Assembly: GCF_000739695.1 (NCBI RefSeq)
Contig: NZ_BBIO01000002.1
Location: 186,001-250,000 of the forward strand
Source: Tepidicaulis marinus
GTDB lineage: Bacteria > Pseudomonadota > Alphaproteobacteria > Parvibaculales > Parvibaculaceae
Direction of reading: 5' to 3'
DNA: 64,000 nucleotides
Shown here: positions 33,102-41,388 of the stretch, in pieces
Layout: the number at the start of each line of letters is the position of its first letter
How positions within the stretch are numbered: position 1 is the stretch's first letter
Translations under genes and position numbers: made by a program
Notes under the pieces: model-generated
Seen by the model: the letters and a program-made list of their open reading frames with translations, nothing else
What the model was told of the DNA's origin: nothing
Databases searched by the model: none

Positions 33102-35549
33102 ATGAAACGCGTGAAGAAAGCGGCCAAATGGACCGGCATCGTGTTTGCGGGCGCGTTTGCCCTCATCGCCCTTCTCCTGCTCGACCGGTTTTCCGCCGCC
33201 CGCCATGCCGCCCCGCAAATTCAAGGTGAAAAAGAAATAGCATCTCCCCTTGGCAGCGGCGTGACATTGAGTGCGCCCGTCACAATCCTGCGGGATAAAA
33301 ACGCCGTCCCGCATATCGAAGCGCAAAGCGAAAAAGATGCGCTCTTTGCCCTGGGTTATGCCCACGGCCAGGACCGGCTCTGGCAGATGGAGCTGCTGCG
33401 CCGGGTGGGCACCGGACGGCTTGCGGAAGTCTTCGGCCCGCCCGCCCTTTCCATCGACCGGTTTTTCCGCACCCTCGGCTTTGCCCATCTGGCGGACGAT
33501 ACCTACGCCGCCCTGCCCGGCAGGATGAAGGAACTCCTCGATGCCTATGCCGCGGGCGTGAACGCCTCCATGAGCGGGCGGGACAAACCGCTGCCGCTCG
33601 AATTCCAGCTGCTCTTTCATGAGCCCGAACCCTGGGAACCGCGCCACTCGCTCGTCATGGTGAAAATGCTGGAGCTCGGCCTTTCGGCCAATGCCTTCGA
33701 TGAAATTGCCCGCGCGCGGCTCGCCCGCGATTTGCCGCCGACAAGCTTTCAGGAATTTTTCGGCGTCGAAGAAGAACTCGCCCCTTTTCTCGTCGGCGAA
33801 CTCGGCAAGCTTTTCCAAAAAGCGCCGCTGACCAAGACCGCGCGCGCCTGGCCCGATCTCGGCCCCATCGGCGCCTCCAATAATTGGGTGGTAAACGGAG
33901 AGCACACGAAAAGCGGCAAGCCGCTGCTCGCCAATGATCCCCATCTTGGCATGCTCGCCCCCTCGCTCTGGTATCTCGTGCATCTGCAAAACCCGGTGGA
34001 GGGTGAGACCCGCAATCTTGTGGGCGCGACGATCCCCGGCATTCCAAGCGTGCTGCTCGGCCGGAACGACCGCATCGCCTGGGGCCTTACGAATACGCGG
34101 CCCGACAGCCAGGACCTTTATATCGAGCGGCTCAATCCCGATAACCCGGATGAATATGAAACGCCCGATGGCTTTACCGCCTTTAAGGTGCGCGAGGAAC
34201 ACATCAAGGTACGCTTCGGCTCGGATGAAGTCTTGAGCGTCAGGGCGACGCGGCACGGCCCGGTACTGCCGGAGGAAACCGTGGCAGGCGCGCCCTCGCT
34301 CGAAGAAGGTCACGTCCTCGCGCTTTCCTGGCCGGCGCTTGAGCCCGGCGATCTGACGGTCGCGGCAGGATACAAGATGAGCCGGGCGGAAAATTTCACC
34401 GGCTTCCTGGAGGCGCTGCGCGATGACTATGTCAGCCCCATGCAGTCCATCGTCTATGGCGATATTGACGGGAATATCGGCTTCATCGCGCCGGCGCATA
34501 TTCCGCTACGCGGGCCGGCGCACCGCACGAAAGGGCTGATGCCCGCCGAAGGCTGGCTGCGCGACAATGACTGGACGGGCATCATTCCCTTCGACGCGCT
34601 GCCGCAGCTTTACAATCCGGCAAGCGGCATCATCGCGAGCGCCAATCACAAGATCGTGGACGACAATTATCCCTATCAGCTCGCGCTCGACTGGAACGCG
34701 CCTTACCGCGCCATTCGCATTTATGAACTCCTGGAAGCGGGAGACGATTTCAGCGCGCAGGATTTCGCCGACATGCAGATGGATAATCTCTCGCTTTTTG
34801 CCGCCCGCGTGCTGCCGCTTCTTCTGGAACATTTGCCTGAGGCGCAAAAAGAAACGGCGGAAGGCAAACTGCTTGCCGCCTGGAACCATTCCCTCGATGC
34901 GGAAAAAGCCGCCCCGCTCATCTATGCCGCCTTTCTGCACGAGCTGCCGAAAACACTCTGGGCGGATGAGCTTGGTGCCTCTTTTGACAGTTACAAAAGC
35001 CCGCGTTCGGATTTTCTCTTGAGCATCTTCGAAGGCACACGCCCCAATACCCATTGGTGCGATGACACGCAAACGGAAGAAACGGAAAGCTGCGCCGCCC
35101 AAACCGGCAAGGCCTTTGAGGCGGCAATGGCGGGGCTGCGCGAGACATATGGCGAAGACCCTCAAGATTGGACCTGGGGCGCGGCGCATCCCGTGATCAA
35201 CAACCACATTCCGGGCGGCAGCTTGCCCTTCCTGAAAAACTGGCTGAGCCTTGAAACGCCATCGGCGGGCGGCATACATACGCTGAACCGCGGGCAATAT
35301 CGAGGCAGCGGCGCGCGGCCCTTCGCCAATATCCATGCGGCAGGTTTCCGCGCCGTCTATGATTTTGCCGATCTCGACAGCTCGCTTTACATGATCTCGA
35401 CCGGCCAGTCGGGCGATCCTTATTCGCCCTTTTACGGCAATCTTCTGGAAGATTGGGCGGCGGGTCGAACCATCACCATTTCAACGCGCAAGGACGTTTA
35501 TCGCAAAGGCGCGCTTGGCACGCTCACCCTGCGCCCGGCAGACGGATAA
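33102..35549 (+). CDS. Penicillin acylase family Ntn hydrolase, membrane-anchored or exported
   Basis: An 815-residue precursor. A basic N-terminus and hydrophobic helix (residues 10-28) act as signal or anchor. The alpha-chain part includes FALGYAHGQDRLWQMELLRRVGTGRLAEVFG. Autocleavage should occur before Ser259 in IGASNNWVVNG, making Ser259 the beta-chain nucleophile; the SNNW box is intact. Later motifs are NDPHLGMLAPSLWYLVHL, IPGIPSVLLGRNDRIAWGLTN and IVYGDIDGNIGFIAPAHIP. Such acylases cleave side-chain amides of beta-lactams, acyl-homoserine lactones or other N-acyl compounds. A strong ribosome site (GAGAGG) precedes the start. Its 3' end lies 5 bp from the convergent TonB-like gene. Confidence 0.9.
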   Translation: MKRVKKAAKWTGIVFAGAFALIALLLLDRFSAARHAAPQIQGEKEIASPLGSGVTLSAPVTILRDKNAVPHIEAQSEKDALFALGYAHGQDRLWQMELLRRVGTGRLAEVFGPPALSIDRFFRTLGFAHLADDTYAALPGRMKELLDAYAAGVNASMSGRDKPLPLEFQLLFHEPEPWEPRHSLVMVKMLELGLSANAFDEIARARLARDLPPTSFQEFFGVEEELAPFLVGELGKLFQKAPLTKTARAWPDLGPIGASNNWVVNGEHTKSGKPLLANDPHLGMLAPSLWYLVHLQNPVEGETRNLVGATIPGIPSVLLGRNDRIAWGLTNTRPDSQDLYIERLNPDNPDEYETPDGFTAFKVREEHIKVRFGSDEVLSVRATRHGPVLPEETVAGAPSLEEGHVLALSWPALEPGDLTVAAGYKMSRAENFTGFLEALRDDYVSPMQSIVYGDIDGNIGFIAPAHIPLRGPAHRTKGLMPAEGWLRDNDWTGIIPFDALPQLYNPASGIIASANHKIVDDNYPYQLALDWNAPYRAIRIYELLEAGDDFSAQDFADMQMDNLSLFAARVLPLLLEHLPEAQKETAEGKLLAAWNHSLDAEKAAPLIYAAFLHELPKTLWADELGASFDSYKSPRSDFLLSIFEGTRPNTHWCDDTQTEETESCAAQTGKAFEAAMAGLRETYGEDPQDWTWGAAHPVINNHIPGGSLPFLKNWLSLETPSAGGIHTLNRGQYRGSGARPFANIHAAGFRAVYDFADLDSSLYMISTGQSGDPYSPFYGNLLEDWAAGRTITISTRKDVYRKGALGTLTLRPADG

Positions 35550-35554
35550 GACGC

Positions 35555-36427
35555 CTATTCGATCCGGCCTTCCGCCGCGATCCGGCCCGTCTTGCAATTG
35601 GGCGAGGAATCGATGGTGCATTTGTCGTAGTAAAGCCGCACCGTACCCGCCTCGTCCTGCGTCATGTGATAGCAGTCTTTGGTGTTGTAGGAGATGACGG
35701 GCGATTGATGGCACCACATGTCGCCTTCGATCCACCAGCGCCCTTCCCCGTCGAGGCTGCGCGTCGAAGAGCGCTGCTGGTGGAAAGTCTTGTAGTGGTA
35801 ATAGACGAGTTCCACTTCCGAGGTGCCGTCCGGCTTCAGCTTGATGATCGTGTTGGTGAGGCGGTTGCCGCCGGGAATATCGAGTCGGCCCATTTCCAGA
35901 TTGAACGTATGTCCGCTCGACTGCGCGGCGATCTGGATGCCGGTCATTTTCGTCCCCTTTTGATTGAGGATCGTCTGCTCGGCCTCGCCGCTGCTGCCTT
36001 GCGTATCGTCTCCGCTTGTACCCTCGGAGCGTCCGGCAACGGCCTGTTTGGCCTCGCCCTCAACGGGCGTCGTCTTTTCCGCCGTCTGGGGGCGTTCGGT
36101 CTTGCGCAGCGGAATGACGTCGGGCTTGGGCTTCGGTTTTTCCACGACTTCGGGTTTTTCGGCAGGCTTCGGCGCCGGGTCCACATCGGCATCGGCAAAG
36201 ACCGGGTCCTGCTGCGCCCCGTCAATATCCGCCGCCGCATCCACGTCCTGGCCCGGCCCGGCCGCAAGCTGAAAGAACAGCTTGTCGCCGCCGCCCGGCC
36301 CCGGCGCGCCGAAAATACCGCCCGCCAGCATGAAGAGGATAAAGGCCAGCACATGCACCAGCGCGGAGCCGATAAGAAACCGCTTTATATTCGGCGGTGA
36401 GGATGGCGATTGTTCGGCCAAACTCAT
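35555..36427 (-). CDS. TonB-like shuttle protein with a non-TonB C-terminal domain
   Basis: A 290-residue protein, the last gene of an exbB-exbD-exbD-like operon. One membrane helix spans about residues 16-38 and contains Ser21-x3-His25 (SALVH), the SxxxH pattern of the TonB/TolA helix that contacts ExbB-ExbD. A Pro/Lys/Glu-rich linker follows (84-125), then a Gly/Ser stretch. The C-terminal domain (163-290) has no TonB C-terminal motif. It is beta-rich with SGHTFNLEMG, IIKLKPDGTSEVELVYYH, GRWWIEGDMWCHQ and KDCYHMTQDEAG, and four cysteines (239, 252, 270, 278) that could make two disulfides. The GxWxxxGDxxC...CYxxxxD pattern recalls DUF995-like or lipocalin-like periplasmic domains. Strong ribosome site GGGAGGAG. 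Confidence 0.75.
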   Translation of the reverse strand: MSLAEQSPSSPPNIKRFLIGSALVHVLAFILFMLAGGIFGAPGPGGGDKLFFQLAAGPGQDVDAAADIDGAQQDPVFADADVDPAPKPAEKPEVVEKPKPKPDVIPLRKTERPQTAEKTTPVEGEAKQAVAGRSEGTSGDDTQGSSGEAEQTILNQKGTKMTGIQIAAQSSGHTFNLEMGRLDIPGGNRLTNTIIKLKPDGTSEVELVYYHYKTFHQQRSSTRSLDGEGRWWIEGDMWCHQSPVISYNTKDCYHMTQDEAGTVRLYYDKCTIDSSPNCKTGRIAAEGRIE

Positions 36428-36488: not shown

Positions 36489-36896
36489 TTATTCCTTTGC
36501 TTGCTGCGTGATCAGCATGACCTCCTTCACGCCGATATTGCGCAGGCCCTCCATGAGCTGAATGAGATCATGGGCATCCGCCGCCTGATCCGCCTTCACC
36601 GTCACGGCCTCCACCGCGAGCTTGGAGAAGCGGTTGCGCAGCATGTAGGGCGCCATTTGCGCGTCCATGGTCAGGTCCTGAAAATGCACGAAGCCGTCCG
36701 CTTCCACATAAAGGATGAGTTCTTCTTCCTGCTTCTTGTCGTCCACCTGGCCGGTGGGAAGCTCGACATCCACCGTGTCGGTCTTCTTCAGCGTGCCGGT
36801 GAGAAGAAAGAAGATCAGCAGCAGAAACACTACATTTATGAGCGGCACCACGCTTTCGATCTGGCGGCGGGGCGGGTTTTCCTCGAACTCGATCAT
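36489..36896 (-). CDS. ExbD/TolR-family protein with Asn at the proton-carrying position
   Basis: A 135-residue biopolymer-transport protein with one N-terminal membrane helix (VVPLINVVFLLLIFFLLTGT, residues 16-35) and a periplasmic domain (VKADQAADAHDLIQLMEGLRNIG near 98-120). In ExbD/TolR/MotB-type stators the helix begins with an essential Asp (PLIDVVF); here it is Asn21. It overlaps the preceding exbD gene by 4 bp (ATGA), so the two ExbDs are made together and could form a heterodimer in the ExbB pore. Confidence 0.85.
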   Translation of the reverse strand: MIEFEENPPRRQIESVVPLINVVFLLLIFFLLTGTLKKTDTVDVELPTGQVDDKKQEEELILYVEADGFVHFQDLTMDAQMAPYMLRNRFSKLAVEAVTVKADQAADAHDLIQLMEGLRNIGVKEVMLITQQAKE

Positions 36897-37321
36897 TGCC
36901 CGCCCCCCACGCGTGTCGTGGCCACGGTGCGCGCGCCCGCCTGACGGGCCGCCTCCACCGCACTGATGAGCGGCTGCACCTGCACATCCTTCTCCGCCAG
37001 GATGGAGACCACCGCCTCCTTGTCCCCGCCGAGCGCCGCCTTGATGGCCGCCGAGAGCTCTTCGACCGGCGCGGCTTCCCCATCGACACGGAACGTACCG
37101 CCGGGGGCAACGCGCACCTCCACCACCGTCCAGTCGCTGTCGGTCTCGCTTGCCGCCTTGGGCGGGGTGATGACGCTCAACGTCTGCGTTTGCAGAAAGG
37201 TGCTTGCCAGCATGAAGAAGATCAGCAGCAAAAACACCACGTCGATCAGCGGCGTCAAAGAGACGATGCGCCGCTTGACCTCGTAGTGCCCGAAAAGATC
37301 GTCGCCGCTTCCATGTTGCAT
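36893..37321 (-). CDS. exbD: ExbD/TolR-family protein with intact proton-carrying Asp
   Basis: A 142-residue protein with a short basic cytoplasmic start, a membrane helix SLTPLIDVVFLLLIFFMLAST (residues 21-41) with Asp27 as the expected proton carrier, and a periplasmic domain ending VSILAEKDVQVQPLISAVEAARQAGA. It is 8 bp after the exbB-like gene and overlaps the second exbD by 4 bp. It would supply the proton-conducting helix of the stator. Confidence 0.9.
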   Translation of the reverse strand: MQHGSGDDLFGHYEVKRRIVSLTPLIDVVFLLLIFFMLASTFLQTQTLSVITPPKAASETDSDWTVVEVRVAPGGTFRVDGEAAPVEELSAAIKAALGGDKEAVVSILAEKDVQVQPLISAVEAARQAGARTVATTRVGGGQ

Positions 37322-37329
37322 GGCTGGCC

Positions 37330-38103
37330 TCAGACGAGTTTCAAAATGGCGAGCATGCGGCCCGTCGCGTCACGCAGACGCAAACGCACCTGGTCCACCC
37401 GGTTCTCGAAAAGATTGAGCGCCCCGATGGCGGGAATAGCAACGGCCAGACCCACGGCGGTCGTCAGCAGCGCTTCCCAGATGCCGCCGGAAAGAATCGC
37501 CGGATCGACCCGGTTGCCCGCCGCTTCAAGCTGCTGGAACGCCTCGATCATGCCGATCACCGTGCCGAGCAAGCCGAGCAAGGGCGAAATATTGCCGATC
37601 ACTTCCAGCCAGCGGAAATAGCCTTGCAGGGCGCCCAGCTCATTGCCGCCGACACGGGCCATCTCTTCGGCAGGCTGCATGCCATTGCGCTTCGCCTCGA
37701 CACCGGCCAGAAGCACGCGGGCGATGGGCGAGCGGTGCTTGCGCAAAATGTCTGCCGCCTCATCGAGCTTGCCGGCCGAGGCTTTGTCCAGCGCCGGTTC
37801 CAAGAACGCTTTGCGCGACAGGCCTGCACGCCAAAACTGCACCACCTTGAGCAGAATGACCGCCAGGGAGAAAACCGAAAGAATGATCAGGATAACGACG
37901 ATGGGGCCGCCCTTATCGACCAGCGGCACCAGATCGAGCAGCCCACCCCCATCGGCGGGAATGGATGCGGCGGCATCGCCCGCCGCCTGCGCCGCGCCTT
38001 CCGCGGCCTCTGCCGCCCCCTCGACGGCGCCTTCGGCCGCATTTACAGCTTCTTCAGCGTTTTCAGCGCTCGCTTCGGCGCCCGAACTCGTGACGTCGTC
38101 CAC
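37330..38103 (-). CDS. exbB: MotA/TolQ/ExbB proton-channel family protein
   Basis: A 257-residue protein, the first gene of the Ton-like operon. An Ala/Glu-rich periplasmic N-terminal extension (1-50) precedes three membrane helices: 67-88 (GPIVVILIILSVFSLAVILLK), 170-190 (ISPLLGLLGTVIGMIEAF) and 212-233 (LLTTAVGLAVAIPAIGALN). The last two carry the conserved TolQ/ExbB pore motifs GLLGTVxGM and TTAVGLxxAIPA. Start is GTG at 38103 with AGGGGGA upstream. The extended N-terminus is longer than in TolQ but seen in some ExbB proteins. Confidence 0.92.
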   Translation of the reverse strand: MDDVTSSGAEASAENAEEAVNAAEGAVEGAAEAAEGAAQAAGDAAASIPADGGGLLDLVPLVDKGGPIVVILIILSVFSLAVILLKVVQFWRAGLSRKAFLEPALDKASAGKLDEAADILRKHRSPIARVLLAGVEAKRNGMQPAEEMARVGGNELGALQGYFRWLEVIGNISPLLGLLGTVIGMIEAFQQLEAAGNRVDPAILSGGIWEALLTTAVGLAVAIPAIGALNLFENRVDQVRLRLRDATGRMLAILKLV

Positions 38104-38245: not shown

Positions 38246-38863
38246 ATGCCCCAGAACCTGCCAGCCGATAAAAATAAAGTCAGCGCCGCGGGGCGAGCCG
38301 CGGCCGGGCCGGACGAGATTCCGAAGCCGCCCGCAGGCGAGACGGAGCTGGGGCCGGGCTATTTTCTGCAATTGCTGGAAGGTATAGGCACCTCGCTGGA
38401 ACAGGCCTATGACAGCGCCAACCCGCTGCCACGCGGCCACCAGCGCCTGATCCGCCAATTGCTGCTCAAGGACGGCCAGACCCAGACGGAACTCGCTACG
38501 GCTATGCACATCCACAAAGTGTCCGTCGGGCTCTACATCAACGATCTGGTGGAAATGGGTCTGGTGGAACGCCGCCGCCACCCCAAGGACGGGCGCGCCT
38601 ATTGCATCCATCTGACCGAATATCTGCACCGTTTCCGCCCGGAAGGCGAACGGGTCTTCGCCGAAATCCACGCCCATGCCATCAAGGGCCTGCCAACCGA
38701 GGAATACCGGATGTTGCTGCAGGCCATGGAGAAGATCTATCTCAACCTGCAGGGCCTGGCGCGGGCCCCTGACAAGGTAAAGCCGATTACGTCCCCAGCG
38801 CCTGATAGCCGCCCCGGTGATAAACCAGCGGGCGCCCCTCCTGTTCGGAAGAAAACGCCTTAA
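38246..38863 (+). CDS. MarR-family transcriptional regulator divergent from the Ton-like operon
   Basis: A 205-residue protein. A flexible Pro/Ala-rich N-terminus (1-34) and basic C-tail (180-205) flank a winged-helix core: LPRGHQRLIRQLLLKDGQTQTELATAMHIHKVSVGLYINDLVEMGLVERRRHPKDGRAYCIHLTE (the D-R wing is intact). One Cys only. It likely controls the divergent exbB operon. Its 3' end overlaps the convergent flavin reductase gene by 77 bp. Confidence 0.87.
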   Translation: MPQNLPADKNKVSAAGRAAAGPDEIPKPPAGETELGPGYFLQLLEGIGTSLEQAYDSANPLPRGHQRLIRQLLLKDGQTQTELATAMHIHKVSVGLYINDLVEMGLVERRRHPKDGRAYCIHLTEYLHRFRPEGERVFAEIHAHAIKGLPTEEYRMLLQAMEKIYLNLQGLARAPDKVKPITSPAPDSRPGDKPAGAPPVRKKTP

Positions 38864-39266
38864 CCCGGCCAATCAGGATGATGTGGTCGCCCGCATCATG
38901 CCTTGCATAAATATCGCATTCGAACACCGCCAGCGCCGCCTCGATGCGCGGACAGCCATTCTCCCCTTCCCGCGTGGCAACCGCCTCAAGCGAGTGATCG
39001 CCGCTCTTGGCCAGTTCGTTGGAAATGTGTTTTTGATCCTCGCTGAGAATGTTCACGGTGAAGGCATCGCACGTCTCGAAAATGGAAAGCGTGTCCGAGC
39101 CTTTGTCGAGGCACCAAAGAACCAGCGGCGGGTCCAGTGAAACCGAGGAAAAGGAATTGACCGTAATTCCAATAGGGGTTTTCCCCGGTACTTTCGTCGT
39201 CACAATGGCAACGCCGGTGGCGAACCACCCCAAGGCGTTGCGGAGGGCCCGCGGATCGTGGGTCAT
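38787..39266 (-). CDS. Flavin reductase-like domain protein
   Basis: A 159-residue FMN-binding protein of the flavin-reductase/DIM6 family. Seen: RNALGWFATGVAIVTTKVPG, PIGITVNSFSSVSLDPPLVLWCLDKGSDTLSIF and FTVNILSEDQKHISNELAKSG, the usual order, ending with DHIILIGRVKAFSSEQEGRPLVYHRGGY. These enzymes pass reduced flavin to a two-component monooxygenase; no monooxygenase is nearby. The start at 39266 is set by GGGAG. Its last 77 bp lie over the end of the MarR gene. Confidence 0.9.
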   Translation of the reverse strand: MTHDPRALRNALGWFATGVAIVTTKVPGKTPIGITVNSFSSVSLDPPLVLWCLDKGSDTLSIFETCDAFTVNILSEDQKHISNELAKSGDHSLEAVATREGENGCPRIEAALAVFECDIYARHDAGDHIILIGRVKAFSSEQEGRPLVYHRGGYQALGT

Positions 39267-39501
39267 TAACGCTGCTCCCAACGGCTGATTTGTGATCAAT
39301 TCTTAATTAGACCGGTTTTAGGAAGGTTTGCAGGCCGGTGCAATGCCTCAATCATGCCGGGCCTTTTGCGTGCCGGCGGCCTCATCCGGGCAATTTACCT
39401 AAACTCGGTATTAACCCGATTTCGCGGACAATGTGCCAAATCGGACTACCTGCGGAGCACCCGCGGGACATCCGCCGTGAGACAGGGGGACCGTCGGGGT
39501 C

Positions 39502-40365
39502 ATGAAGTTTATCATCGGCATTGTCATCGTCGTCGTCGCTGTTTTCGGCGGTTATTGGGGCGTCGGCGGCCATTTGGGGGTACTCTGGCAGCCTTACGAA
39601 TTCGTGATCATTCTGGGCGCGGCCATCGGCGCCTTCGTCATCGGCAACCCGCCTTCCGTGCTCAAGGGCCTGGGCCGGACATTCAAGATCATGCTCAAGG
39701 GGCCCCAGTACAAAAAAGACTCCTATCTGGAATTGCTCGGCCTGCAATACACGCTCTTCAAATTGGCCAAAGCCAAAGGCAGCCTGGCGCTGGAAGCGCA
39801 TGTGGAGAACCCTTCGGAATCGGACATCTTCAACAGGTTCCCGGCCATTGCATCGGATCCGCGCGCGCTAGAATTCATGTGCGATTATTTGCGCCTTGTT
39901 ACGCTGGGCACGGAAAACTCCCACGAAGTCGAAGCGCTGATGGATGAGGAACTGGAAACCCTCAACCAGGAAGACGAGCAGATGGTCGCCGCCATTCAGT
40001 CGCTTGCAGACGGCACGCCTGCCCTCGGTATCGTGGCCGCGGTGCTCGGCGTTATTCACACGATGGGCTCGATCGACCAGCCGCCGGAAATTCTCGGCCA
40101 CCTCATCGGCGCGGCGCTTGTGGGCACGTTCTTCGGCGTGTTCTGCGCCTACGGCTTCTTCGCGCCCATGGCCATGGCGCTGAAGAATGCCTTTGAATCG
40201 GAAAACAAATTCTACCTCTCCATGAAGGCCGGCATTCTGGCGCATTTGCAAGGCTATGCGCCGGCGGTGTCGGTGGAATTTGCGCGTAAAGCCCTGATGA
40301 GCGATGTGCGCCCGACCTTTGCGGAAGTCGAAGAATCCACACAGAACAGTGCGCAGGCCGCTTAA
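39502..40365 (+). CDS. motA: Flagellar motor stator protein MotA
   Basis: A 287-residue inner-membrane protein of the proton-driven stator. Seen: four hydrophobic helices, GNPPSVLKGLGRTFKIML in the second loop region, MDEELETLNQEDEQMVAAIQSLADGTPALGIVAAVLGVIHTMGSI (with the conserved PALGIVAAVLG proline helix) and HLIGAALVGTFFGVFCAYGF. It is 66 bp upstream of motB. Its presence means the host probably swims by a flagellum. Confidence 0.95.
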   Translation: MKFIIGIVIVVVAVFGGYWGVGGHLGVLWQPYEFVIILGAAIGAFVIGNPPSVLKGLGRTFKIMLKGPQYKKDSYLELLGLQYTLFKLAKAKGSLALEAHVENPSESDIFNRFPAIASDPRALEFMCDYLRLVTLGTENSHEVEALMDEELETLNQEDEQMVAAIQSLADGTPALGIVAAVLGVIHTMGSIDQPPEILGHLIGAALVGTFFGVFCAYGFFAPMAMALKNAFESENKFYLSMKAGILAHLQGYAPAVSVEFARKALMSDVRPTFAEVEESTQNSAQAA

Positions 40366-40431
40366 CACGACCCTTGCGCTCCGGCACACAAGGCACAGAC
40401 CTGAAACAGTACGGAACGGGCGACCCAGACG

Positions 40432-41388
40432 GTGAACGAAGCGCAACCCATCATCAAGAAGATCAAGAAGGGCAAGCACCCGCACCATGGCGGCGCGTGG
40501 AAAATCGCCTATGCCGACTTCGTGACCGCGATGATGGCATTCTTCCTTCTGCTCTGGCTGATCTCCATGACGACGCCGGAGCAAAAGCAAGGACTGGCCG
40601 ACTATTTCGCACCGGCAAATGTCAGTCGCTCGACCAGCGGCTCGGGCGGCGTCATGGGCGGCACCGCCTTCGACATCGAAGGCTCGCGCATGGCCGGCAC
40701 CACCCCGCAAGTGGTGATGAACATTTCCGCTCCGCCCAAACCGAAAAATTCGTATAAGGATGAAAAGGACCGCGCCGAGTCCGCCGAGACGGTGAGTACC
40801 GTTCAGGACAAGCAGGGCCAGGAAGGCACGACCCAGGTCTTCGACGAGCAGCGCCAGCTGGCCGCCGCGACCTCGCGCGAGAAAGACGATTTCCGCTCCG
40901 CCGCCGAAAGCATCCGCCAGGCGCTGCGCGACATGCCGGATCTCGCCGAGCTTTCCAAGAACATATTGGTGGAAGAAACACCCGAAGGCCTGCAAATCCA
41001 GCTCGTCGATCAGGAAGGCCGCTCGATGTTCCCCGCCGGGATCGAGGAACCTTATGAGCGCACCCGGCGCCTCTTGGAAGAAGTTGCCAAGATCGTTCAG
41101 AAATTGCCGAACCGCATCGCCATTTCCGGCCACACCGATTCTGCGGCGAGCTATGGCGGCTCGGACAGCCAGAAATGGGATCTGACAGCCGACCGGGCCA
41201 ATGCCACGCGCCGCATCCTGCAAGGGGCCGGCGTGCCGGACGACCGCATCTACGAAGTGACCGGCAAGGCCGATACGCTGCCGCTCTTCCCCGAGGACCC
41301 GAGCTTGCCCGCCAACCGGCGCATTTCCATTCTCCTCAAGCGCGAGGCGCCTGTCGTGCCGCCCGATTTCGGCAACGGACGCGGCTGA
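40432..41388 (+). CDS. motB: Flagellar motor stator protein MotB
   Basis: A 318-residue stator partner. Basic N-terminus (IIKKIKKGKHPHHGGAWKIA), one helix YADFVTAMMAFFLLLWLIS with the proton-carrying Asp, a plug and linker, and a C-terminal OmpA-like peptidoglycan-binding domain (ISGHTDSAASYGGSDSQKWDLTADRANATRRIL). The start is GTG at 40432 with no strong ribosome site; the next in-frame ATG would remove the motor helix, so GTG is preferred. Confidence 0.94.
   Translation: MNEAQPIIKKIKKGKHPHHGGAWKIAYADFVTAMMAFFLLLWLISMTTPEQKQGLADYFAPANVSRSTSGSGGVMGGTAFDIEGSRMAGTTPQVVMNISAPPKPKNSYKDEKDRAESAETVSTVQDKQGQEGTTQVFDEQRQLAAATSREKDDFRSAAESIRQALRDMPDLAELSKNILVEETPEGLQIQLVDQEGRSMFPAGIEEPYERTRRLLEEVAKIVQKLPNRIAISGHTDSAASYGGSDSQKWDLTADRANATRRILQGAGVPDDRIYEVTGKADTLPLFPEDPSLPANRRISILLKREAPVVPPDFGNGRG

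Follow-up and report, generated by a model that had tools for sequence, protein, structure and literature searches.

In the window, the 64,000-nucleotide stretch of Tepidicaulis marinus DNA that was analyzed, the minus strand carries from position 38103 to position 35555 four genes in the order exbB-exbD1-exbD2-tonB-like, and the two ExbD-family proteins differ at the proton site, which is aspartate in the first and asparagine in the second. Because this pairing has been kept across many bacterial families, it is probably functional rather than accidental. Our best reading, which we consider fairly probable, is a Ton-type 5:2 stator in which each ExbB pentamer would hold one ExbD1 and one ExbD2, and which would drive the TonB-like protein from a single proton site; hetero-assembly, cycle and drive are all parts that we infer.

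The assignments rest on profile matches and alignments (Table 1). ExbB aligned with TolQ and ExbB of solved structures. In phmmer alignments, Asp27 of ExbD1 paired with the transmembrane (TM) aspartate of ExbD and TolR, and Asn21 of ExbD2 paired with the same residue of solved ExbD. The residues and coordinates that had originally been noted for both sites were confirmed by these alignments and by the codons, and the same was true for the ATGA overlap between the two ExbD genes. Several traits of the stator family were present, namely an ExbB-family subunit with the pore threonines in TM2 and TM3, ExbD-family subunits, and the TM aspartate of ExbD1, but the essential TM aspartate of the central subunit is absent from ExbD2. 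With an ExbD2 that lacks this defining residue and scores below every NCBIfam equivalog cut-off for ExbD and TolR (TolR, 56.7 against 127.3 bits; ExbD_1, 35.6 against 152.95 bits; ExbD_2, 30.1 against 123.45 bits), the operon of the window departs from the known ExbBD kind.

Table 1. Features of the four-gene operon, in positions of the window.
Feature	Position	Strand	Remarks
ExbB, 257 aa	37330..38103	-	PF01618 MotA_ExbB, 99.8 bits; first gene of the operon; GTG start as called, tentative
ExbB TM2 Thr181 (equivalent of E. coli ExbB Thr148 and of TolQ)	37561..37563	-	alignment
ExbB Trp209, typical of Asp/Asn operons, motif GIWxALLTT	37477..37479	-	motif counts
ExbB Glu210 (equivalent of E. coli ExbB Glu176), present in the window	37474..37476	-	alignment
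ExbB TM3 Thr215 (equivalent of E. coli Thr181)	37459..37461	-	alignment
ExbD1, Asp type, 142 aa	36893..37321	-	Pfam PF02472 ExbD, 84.3 bits, cut-off 25.4
ExbD1 Asp27, codon GAC (SLTPLIDVVF), proton site	37241..37243	-	alignment with solved proteins
ATGA overlap of 4 bases, ExbD1 stop and ExbD2 start	36893..36896	-	
ExbD2, Asn type, 135 aa	36489..36896	-	PF02472 ExbD, 67.3 bits, cut-off 25.4
ExbD2 Glu14 codon, acid at -7, typical of the Asn type	36855..36857	-	
ExbD2 Asn21, codon AAT (SVVPLINVVF), at the proton site	36834..36836	-	phmmer alignment
TonB-like fourth gene	35555..36427	-	TonB/TolA-type N-terminal TM, Pro-rich linker, C-terminal domain

The window's family comprises at least 31 close orthologues, of which 30 were examined (G025 was left out). 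At all 30 loci, ExbD1 had Asp and ExbD2 had Asn, with ExbD2 identities of 45-100%. Conservation of the pair in homologous operons had been proposed from the window alone; it was found throughout the examined family and reached far beyond it, and random Asp/Asn variation among homologues is rejected by these 30 orthologous operons and by the pairs of the wider survey described next.

For the wider survey, 385 genomes of the class and 398 genomes of the phylum, and thus one phylum, were searched with an Asn-type profile, and the class was searched again with an ExbD1-only profile (A2). The survey loci were hand-chosen among the matches listed, so that the counts are not class-wide prevalences. 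Pairs were counted at loci L006-L264 after merging of identical core segments, and L265-L284 served the neighbourhood analysis only. Among the matches listed, 131 distinct tandem ExbD pairs were obtained, namely 116 Asp/Asn pairs, 14 Asp/Asp pairs and one Asp/Ser pair, and not a single one of the 131 contained Asn in the first ExbD. Second partners belonging to the ExbD2 clade of the window had Asn in 116 of 119 listed cases, and 12 of the 14 Asp/Asp pairs belonged to other ExbD/TolR lineages (by tree where included, by motif for the rest). A control set of unpaired ExbD/TolR proteins, which was retrieved with the Asn-type or the ExbD1 profile and is not a random ExbD/TolR sample, had Asp at the site in 82 of 83 cases among the matches listed. 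The lone Asn (L072) lies at a contig edge, in an ORF 222 bases from the contig start, and a truncated ExbD1 (L242) lies at another contig edge of the same assembly. Given the near-uniform Asp of unpaired proteins and the near-uniform Asn of the clade's second partners, the Asp/Asn pairing goes beyond chance.

Asp/Asn pairs were found under at least 33 family codes, of which three lie outside the class (there are 34 labels, but one repeats the window's family under a name), and at least 13 genomes had two or three such operons, every one of them Asp/Asn. The genome of the window is an example: its five ExbD-family genes are the pair of the window, a second pair on contig C31, which again has Asp followed by Asn (SLIDVIF, PLINIVF) in an exbB-exbD-exbD-tonB operon, and one TolR-like gene. 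A bias caused by the Asn-containing profile was considered as a source of the pattern and set aside, because the ExbD1-only profile still yielded Asn partners at 30 of the 30 best loci listed, in a check that shared most of its genomes with the Asn-bait set and used the same genome draw. No relatives were found on named plasmids.

The constraint on the site was quantified with a non-redundant set (<70%) of 78 clade pairs from the matches listed. ExbD1 had Asp in all 78 pairs, and ExbD2 had Asn in 75, Asp in two and Ser in one. With 0.27 bits, the Asn column was among the lowest-entropy columns of ExbD2 in this set, and Asn was in one of just five invariant columns of 20 chosen ExbD2 sequences, from which the three departures L077, L143 and L047 were left out. 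In these alignments, Asn behaves as a constrained residue. A decayed proton site that has no function and is kept by descent is therefore a very improbable explanation: it could build on a possible single origin of Asn, but the sequences other than that of the window were only 21-37% identical to it, a distance at which decay would have varied the residue. We give just as little credence to post-translational deamidation, by which the Asn of ExbD2 would become Asp and both sites would carry protons. The conversion is chemically possible and two clade members do encode Asp in ExbD2, yet this process would leave unexplained why Asp is not simply encoded in the 116 Asn-type pairs, and the ExbD2 Asn precedes Val or Ile, both of which are slow contexts for deamidation.

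Trees were built without the site column; they were quick and based on few columns. Even with this column removed, ExbD1s and ExbD2s were separated, and four state changes sufficed both in a tree of 193 rows and in a mixture-model tree of 71 rows. In the latter, the Asn rows and the three departures (L077, Asp; L143, Asp; L047, Ser) lay on one side of a branch with a support of 76. Two origins of Asn, which the 193-row LG+G4 tree with five f125/f75 Asn rows outside had indicated, were discarded, as these rows were joined to the others in the mixture-model tree. The simplest history would be one change to Asn followed by three departures, and a single origin is compatible with the trees. At L144:1315-1896 (G458, of the phylum but outside the class), a Trp-type ExbB and a TonB-like gene accompany a single Asp-type ExbD, without ExbD2, which is perhaps an ancestral or a reduced form. 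This locus and the three departures indicate that Asn is dispensable in some lineages.

The ExbB proteins encoded upstream of Asp/Asn pairs share the TM3 motif GIWxALLTT or a close variant. Among the matches listed, the Trp was present beside Asp/Asn pairs in 114 of the 114 cases in which the motif was found, in 4 of 74 single-ExbD operons, and in none of 12 other Asp/Asp operons. No motif was found at two of the 116 Asp/Asn loci and at six of the 80 single loci, and the edge singles L072, L231 and L242 were treated separately. Of the four Trp residues beside singles, three belong to a different motif, GVWQATLPT; the fourth, in L144, is part of GIWEAM. These counts did not require the Glu that follows the Trp, as Glu-requiring expressions missed about 67-71 of the 116 loci, and in nine of the missed loci that were inspected the Glu itself was replaced. 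The residue after the Trp (n=114) was Glu in 49 cases, Val in 41, Gln, Thr and Leu in 6 each, Ala in 3, Ile in 2 and Gly in 1. The Glu was absent also from 36 of 74 ExbBs beside single ExbDs. The corresponding Glu176 of E. coli ExbB is reported to be essential (PMC8599685).

These features could also mean that the pore is adapted, through the ExbD2 Asn and the ExbB Trp, to a task other than a one-proton rotary cycle, e.g. to a different coupling ion or to a gated leak. We regard this as improbable. The ExbB Glu has been lost in 65 of the 114 Asp/Asn operons, and the ion path may run through an environment unlike that in E. coli, but both pore threonines were kept in 114 of 114 operons among the matches listed, and the Asp of ExbD1 is likewise invariant.

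The juxtamembrane region also differed between the two ExbDs. In the non-redundant set of listed matches, an acid at -7 was present in 76% of the ExbD2s and in none of the ExbD1s or singles. Single ExbD/TolR proteins had an acid at -8 (59%) or -6 (34%), and ExbD1s had one at these positions in only 4% and 1%, respectively, being basic there. What an ordinary ExbD combines, a TM aspartate and a juxtamembrane acid, thus appears to be divided between ExbD1 and ExbD2. The acid at -7 was considered as a relocated proton site, and this was rejected because it lies outside the conserved TM core; it is a correlate only. When relatedness was ignored, it occurred in 57 of 65 operons without the ExbB Glu and in 31 of 49 operons with it. 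At the level of sequence, ExbB and the juxtamembrane part of ExbD1 and ExbD2 differ from ordinary stators in step. Nevertheless, the ExbB Trp and the ExbD2 acid may be mere lineage markers, and the correlations of Trp, acid and Asn are not independent tests, because the three genes travel together.

The two ExbD genes overlapped by -4 or -1 in 70 of 116 Asp/Asn pairs and in all 34 pairs labelled with the window's family, both among the matches listed. The ATGA overlap had been taken to indicate stoichiometric synthesis; it implies translational coupling, whereas the stoichiometry itself is only suggested by it. The fixed gene order, the translational coupling, the split juxtamembrane acid and the lineage-specific ExbB Trp together make it plausible that one ExbB pentamer encloses a hetero-pair of ExbD1 and ExbD2 which conducts asymmetrically, as was originally predicted. 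One ORF that contains both an ExbD1 and an ExbD2 domain (L056:1039-1902, G159) was set aside as proof of hetero-assembly. It is more likely to be a frameshift or an assembly error, because its ExbD1 is cut short and its linker lacks a second TM.

Alternatively, ExbD1 homodimers could be the working stator and ExbD2 a non-conducting accessory which, in mixed or separate complexes, throttles, assembles or positions the motor, either as a natural dominant-negative or as a subunit that binds peptidoglycan or TonB. This arrangement seems rather unlikely to us, but it deserves consideration: no conserved residue of an active ExbD TM is missing from ExbD1 itself, L144 combines a Trp-type ExbB with a single ExbD of the Asp type, and exbD2 of Xanthomonas, likened here without its site residue, is reported to be dispensable for iron uptake and needed for another output (PMC3551730). 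An accessory role would not lead one to expect that conservation in the TM of ExbD2 matches that of a pore helix, or that the pairing of ExbD1 with ExbD2 is nearly universal in the clade.

In the 5:2 stator with one ExbD1 and one ExbD2 that we favour, the ExbD1 helix would be the proton carrier, with its Asp, and the ExbD2 helix would be permanently neutral, with an Asn resembling a protonated Asp. The axle could then adopt only the states [- N] and [H N], and a doubly charged state would be impossible. With one proton site per turn, the cycle would advance in 72-degree steps or as a reciprocating stroke, instead of in ten 36-degree steps, and the output of the motor would pass to the TonB-like fourth protein. 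That these operons are widespread natural rotary stators with one axle proton site, in which any rotation would proceed via a doubly neutral state and in five steps instead of ten, is a tentative proposal that we hold to be possible but on balance doubtful.

In solved Ton, Tol and Mot motors, each pentamer surrounds a single pair of ExbD, TolR or MotB helices, with the two Asp residues in different environments (PMC12215075), and in the rotary model the two residues alternate (PMC9389320). The published mechanisms differ in what they would permit. The turnstile scheme locks the doubly neutral state (PMC9389320); an Asp/Asn dimer could therefore not rotate, which counts against our best reading. 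The model of Santiveri et al., according to PMC9389320, allows rotation only with both sites protonated. Asn at the site is a laboratory mimic of protonated Asp, e.g. in MotB D22N (PMC9389320), and E. coli ExbD D25N is reported to be inactive (PMC11658791), which also counts against the best reading. From these two observations an Asn/Asn axle should be dead, and this fits the occurrence of Asn beside Asp.

If an Asp/Asn motor works, this would speak for the model of Santiveri et al. or for a non-rotary stroke rather than for the turnstile. Such a motor would break, in nature, the ten-fold symmetry that has been called almost certainly universal for 5:2 motors in a review, and it would answer whether the cycle passes through [H H] or [- -]. 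Since one proton site is missing from such an axle by nature and not by mutagenesis, the simple fact that the motor works would discriminate between the models, and the need for ten-fold symmetry in 5:2 motors could be tested. The distinct identities of the two ExbDs could, in addition, make it possible to trace which of them is the proton carrier and which contacts TonB or peptidoglycan.

Tandem exbD genes as such are already known from Xanthomonas, Sphingobium and Flavobacterium (PMC8599685, PMC3551730). The ExbBD-TonB systems of E. coli and S. marcescens have in common with the window a PF01618 ExbB with both pore threonines, a PF02472 ExbD, and the Ser-x3-His of the TonB TM. However, E. 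coli has an ExbD homodimer with two Asp where the window's operon encodes an Asp and an Asn protein. Asp/Asn operons differ further by the Trp in ExbB TM3 and the frequent loss of the adjacent Glu, and the window's fourth protein by a C-terminal domain that is not that of TonB. In Sphingobium sp. SYK-6, TonB1-ExbB1-ExbD1-ExbD2, presumed to energize TonB-dependent uptake, is likewise encoded with tandem exbD genes, but Asp25 is reported to be conserved in its ExbD1, ExbD2 and ExbD3, and the pair is therefore Asp/Asp (PMC8599685). In Xanthomonas campestris pv. campestris, tonB-exbB-exbD1-exbD2 also contains tandem exbD genes, and exbD2 has a phenotype of its own (PMC3551730); this comparison was made without the site residue. 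The AglRQS gliding motor of Myxococcus similarly combines one MotA/ExbB-like with two ExbD/TolR-like genes (PMC9389320). Unlike the window's pair, AglQ and AglS are both predicted to have Asp, and according to the same source they might form either hetero- or homodimers (PMC9389320). The laboratory mutants MotB D22N and ExbD D25N have the same Asp-to-Asn change at the same site as ExbD2; D25N was inactive as the sole ExbD (PMC11658791), whereas in the window Asn is natural and confined to one of two paralogues. The literature searched, with subscription papers and bioRxiv preprints mostly outside its coverage, contained no description of an ExbD partner of the Asn type or of a heterodimer between ExbD1 and ExbD2.

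The N-terminal TM of the TonB-like protein contains SALVH, in which Ser21 and His25 form Ser-x3-His; both residues were invariant among three sequences, and His25 was present in 90% or more of 12 TonB-like sequences. The TonB C-terminal domain (PF03544/PF13103) had no match in this protein, and for its C-terminal domain no Pfam or PDB relative was found. Comparison of the 12 sequences revealed four invariant Cys and a WWI motif in that domain, and a profile of the 12 proteins matched only N-terminal and linker parts of TolA and TonB, weakly (E 0.001-0.06). Two AlphaFold2 models had a mean pLDDT of 49.5 and 38.3; with low confidence, the C-terminal domain is predicted to consist mostly of strands. 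The four-Cys protein was found in families f1 (that of the window), f126 and f167. In contrast to the window's protein, the fourth proteins of the C31 operon (51.7 bits) and of L056, the two tested, both had the PF03544 domain. A rough motif classification of the fourth gene at 117 loci, near-duplicates included, yielded 39 with the TonB domain, 38 of the window type, 32 unclear cases, and 8 without a gene found. The same kind of motor would therefore be fitted with two different output arms.

The C31 operon adjoins genes for periplasmic-binding, FecCD and ABC proteins, i.e. a FecCD-type importer. Among 17 genomes from outside the family, two had homologues of all three importer genes within 10-18 kb, and two more had homologues of two of the three. 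The operon of the window is adjoined, at 38246-41388, by a MarR-type gene, a flavin reductase gene and flagellar-type MotA-MotB genes, and its divergent orientation from the MarR-type gene, followed by flavin reductase and MotA-MotB, was found in 3 of 3 family genomes examined. On the other side, a penicillin amidase family protein is encoded convergently on the plus strand (33102-35549, 720.8 bits), with 5 bases between it and the end of the TonB-like gene; such a neighbour was present in one of the three family genomes.
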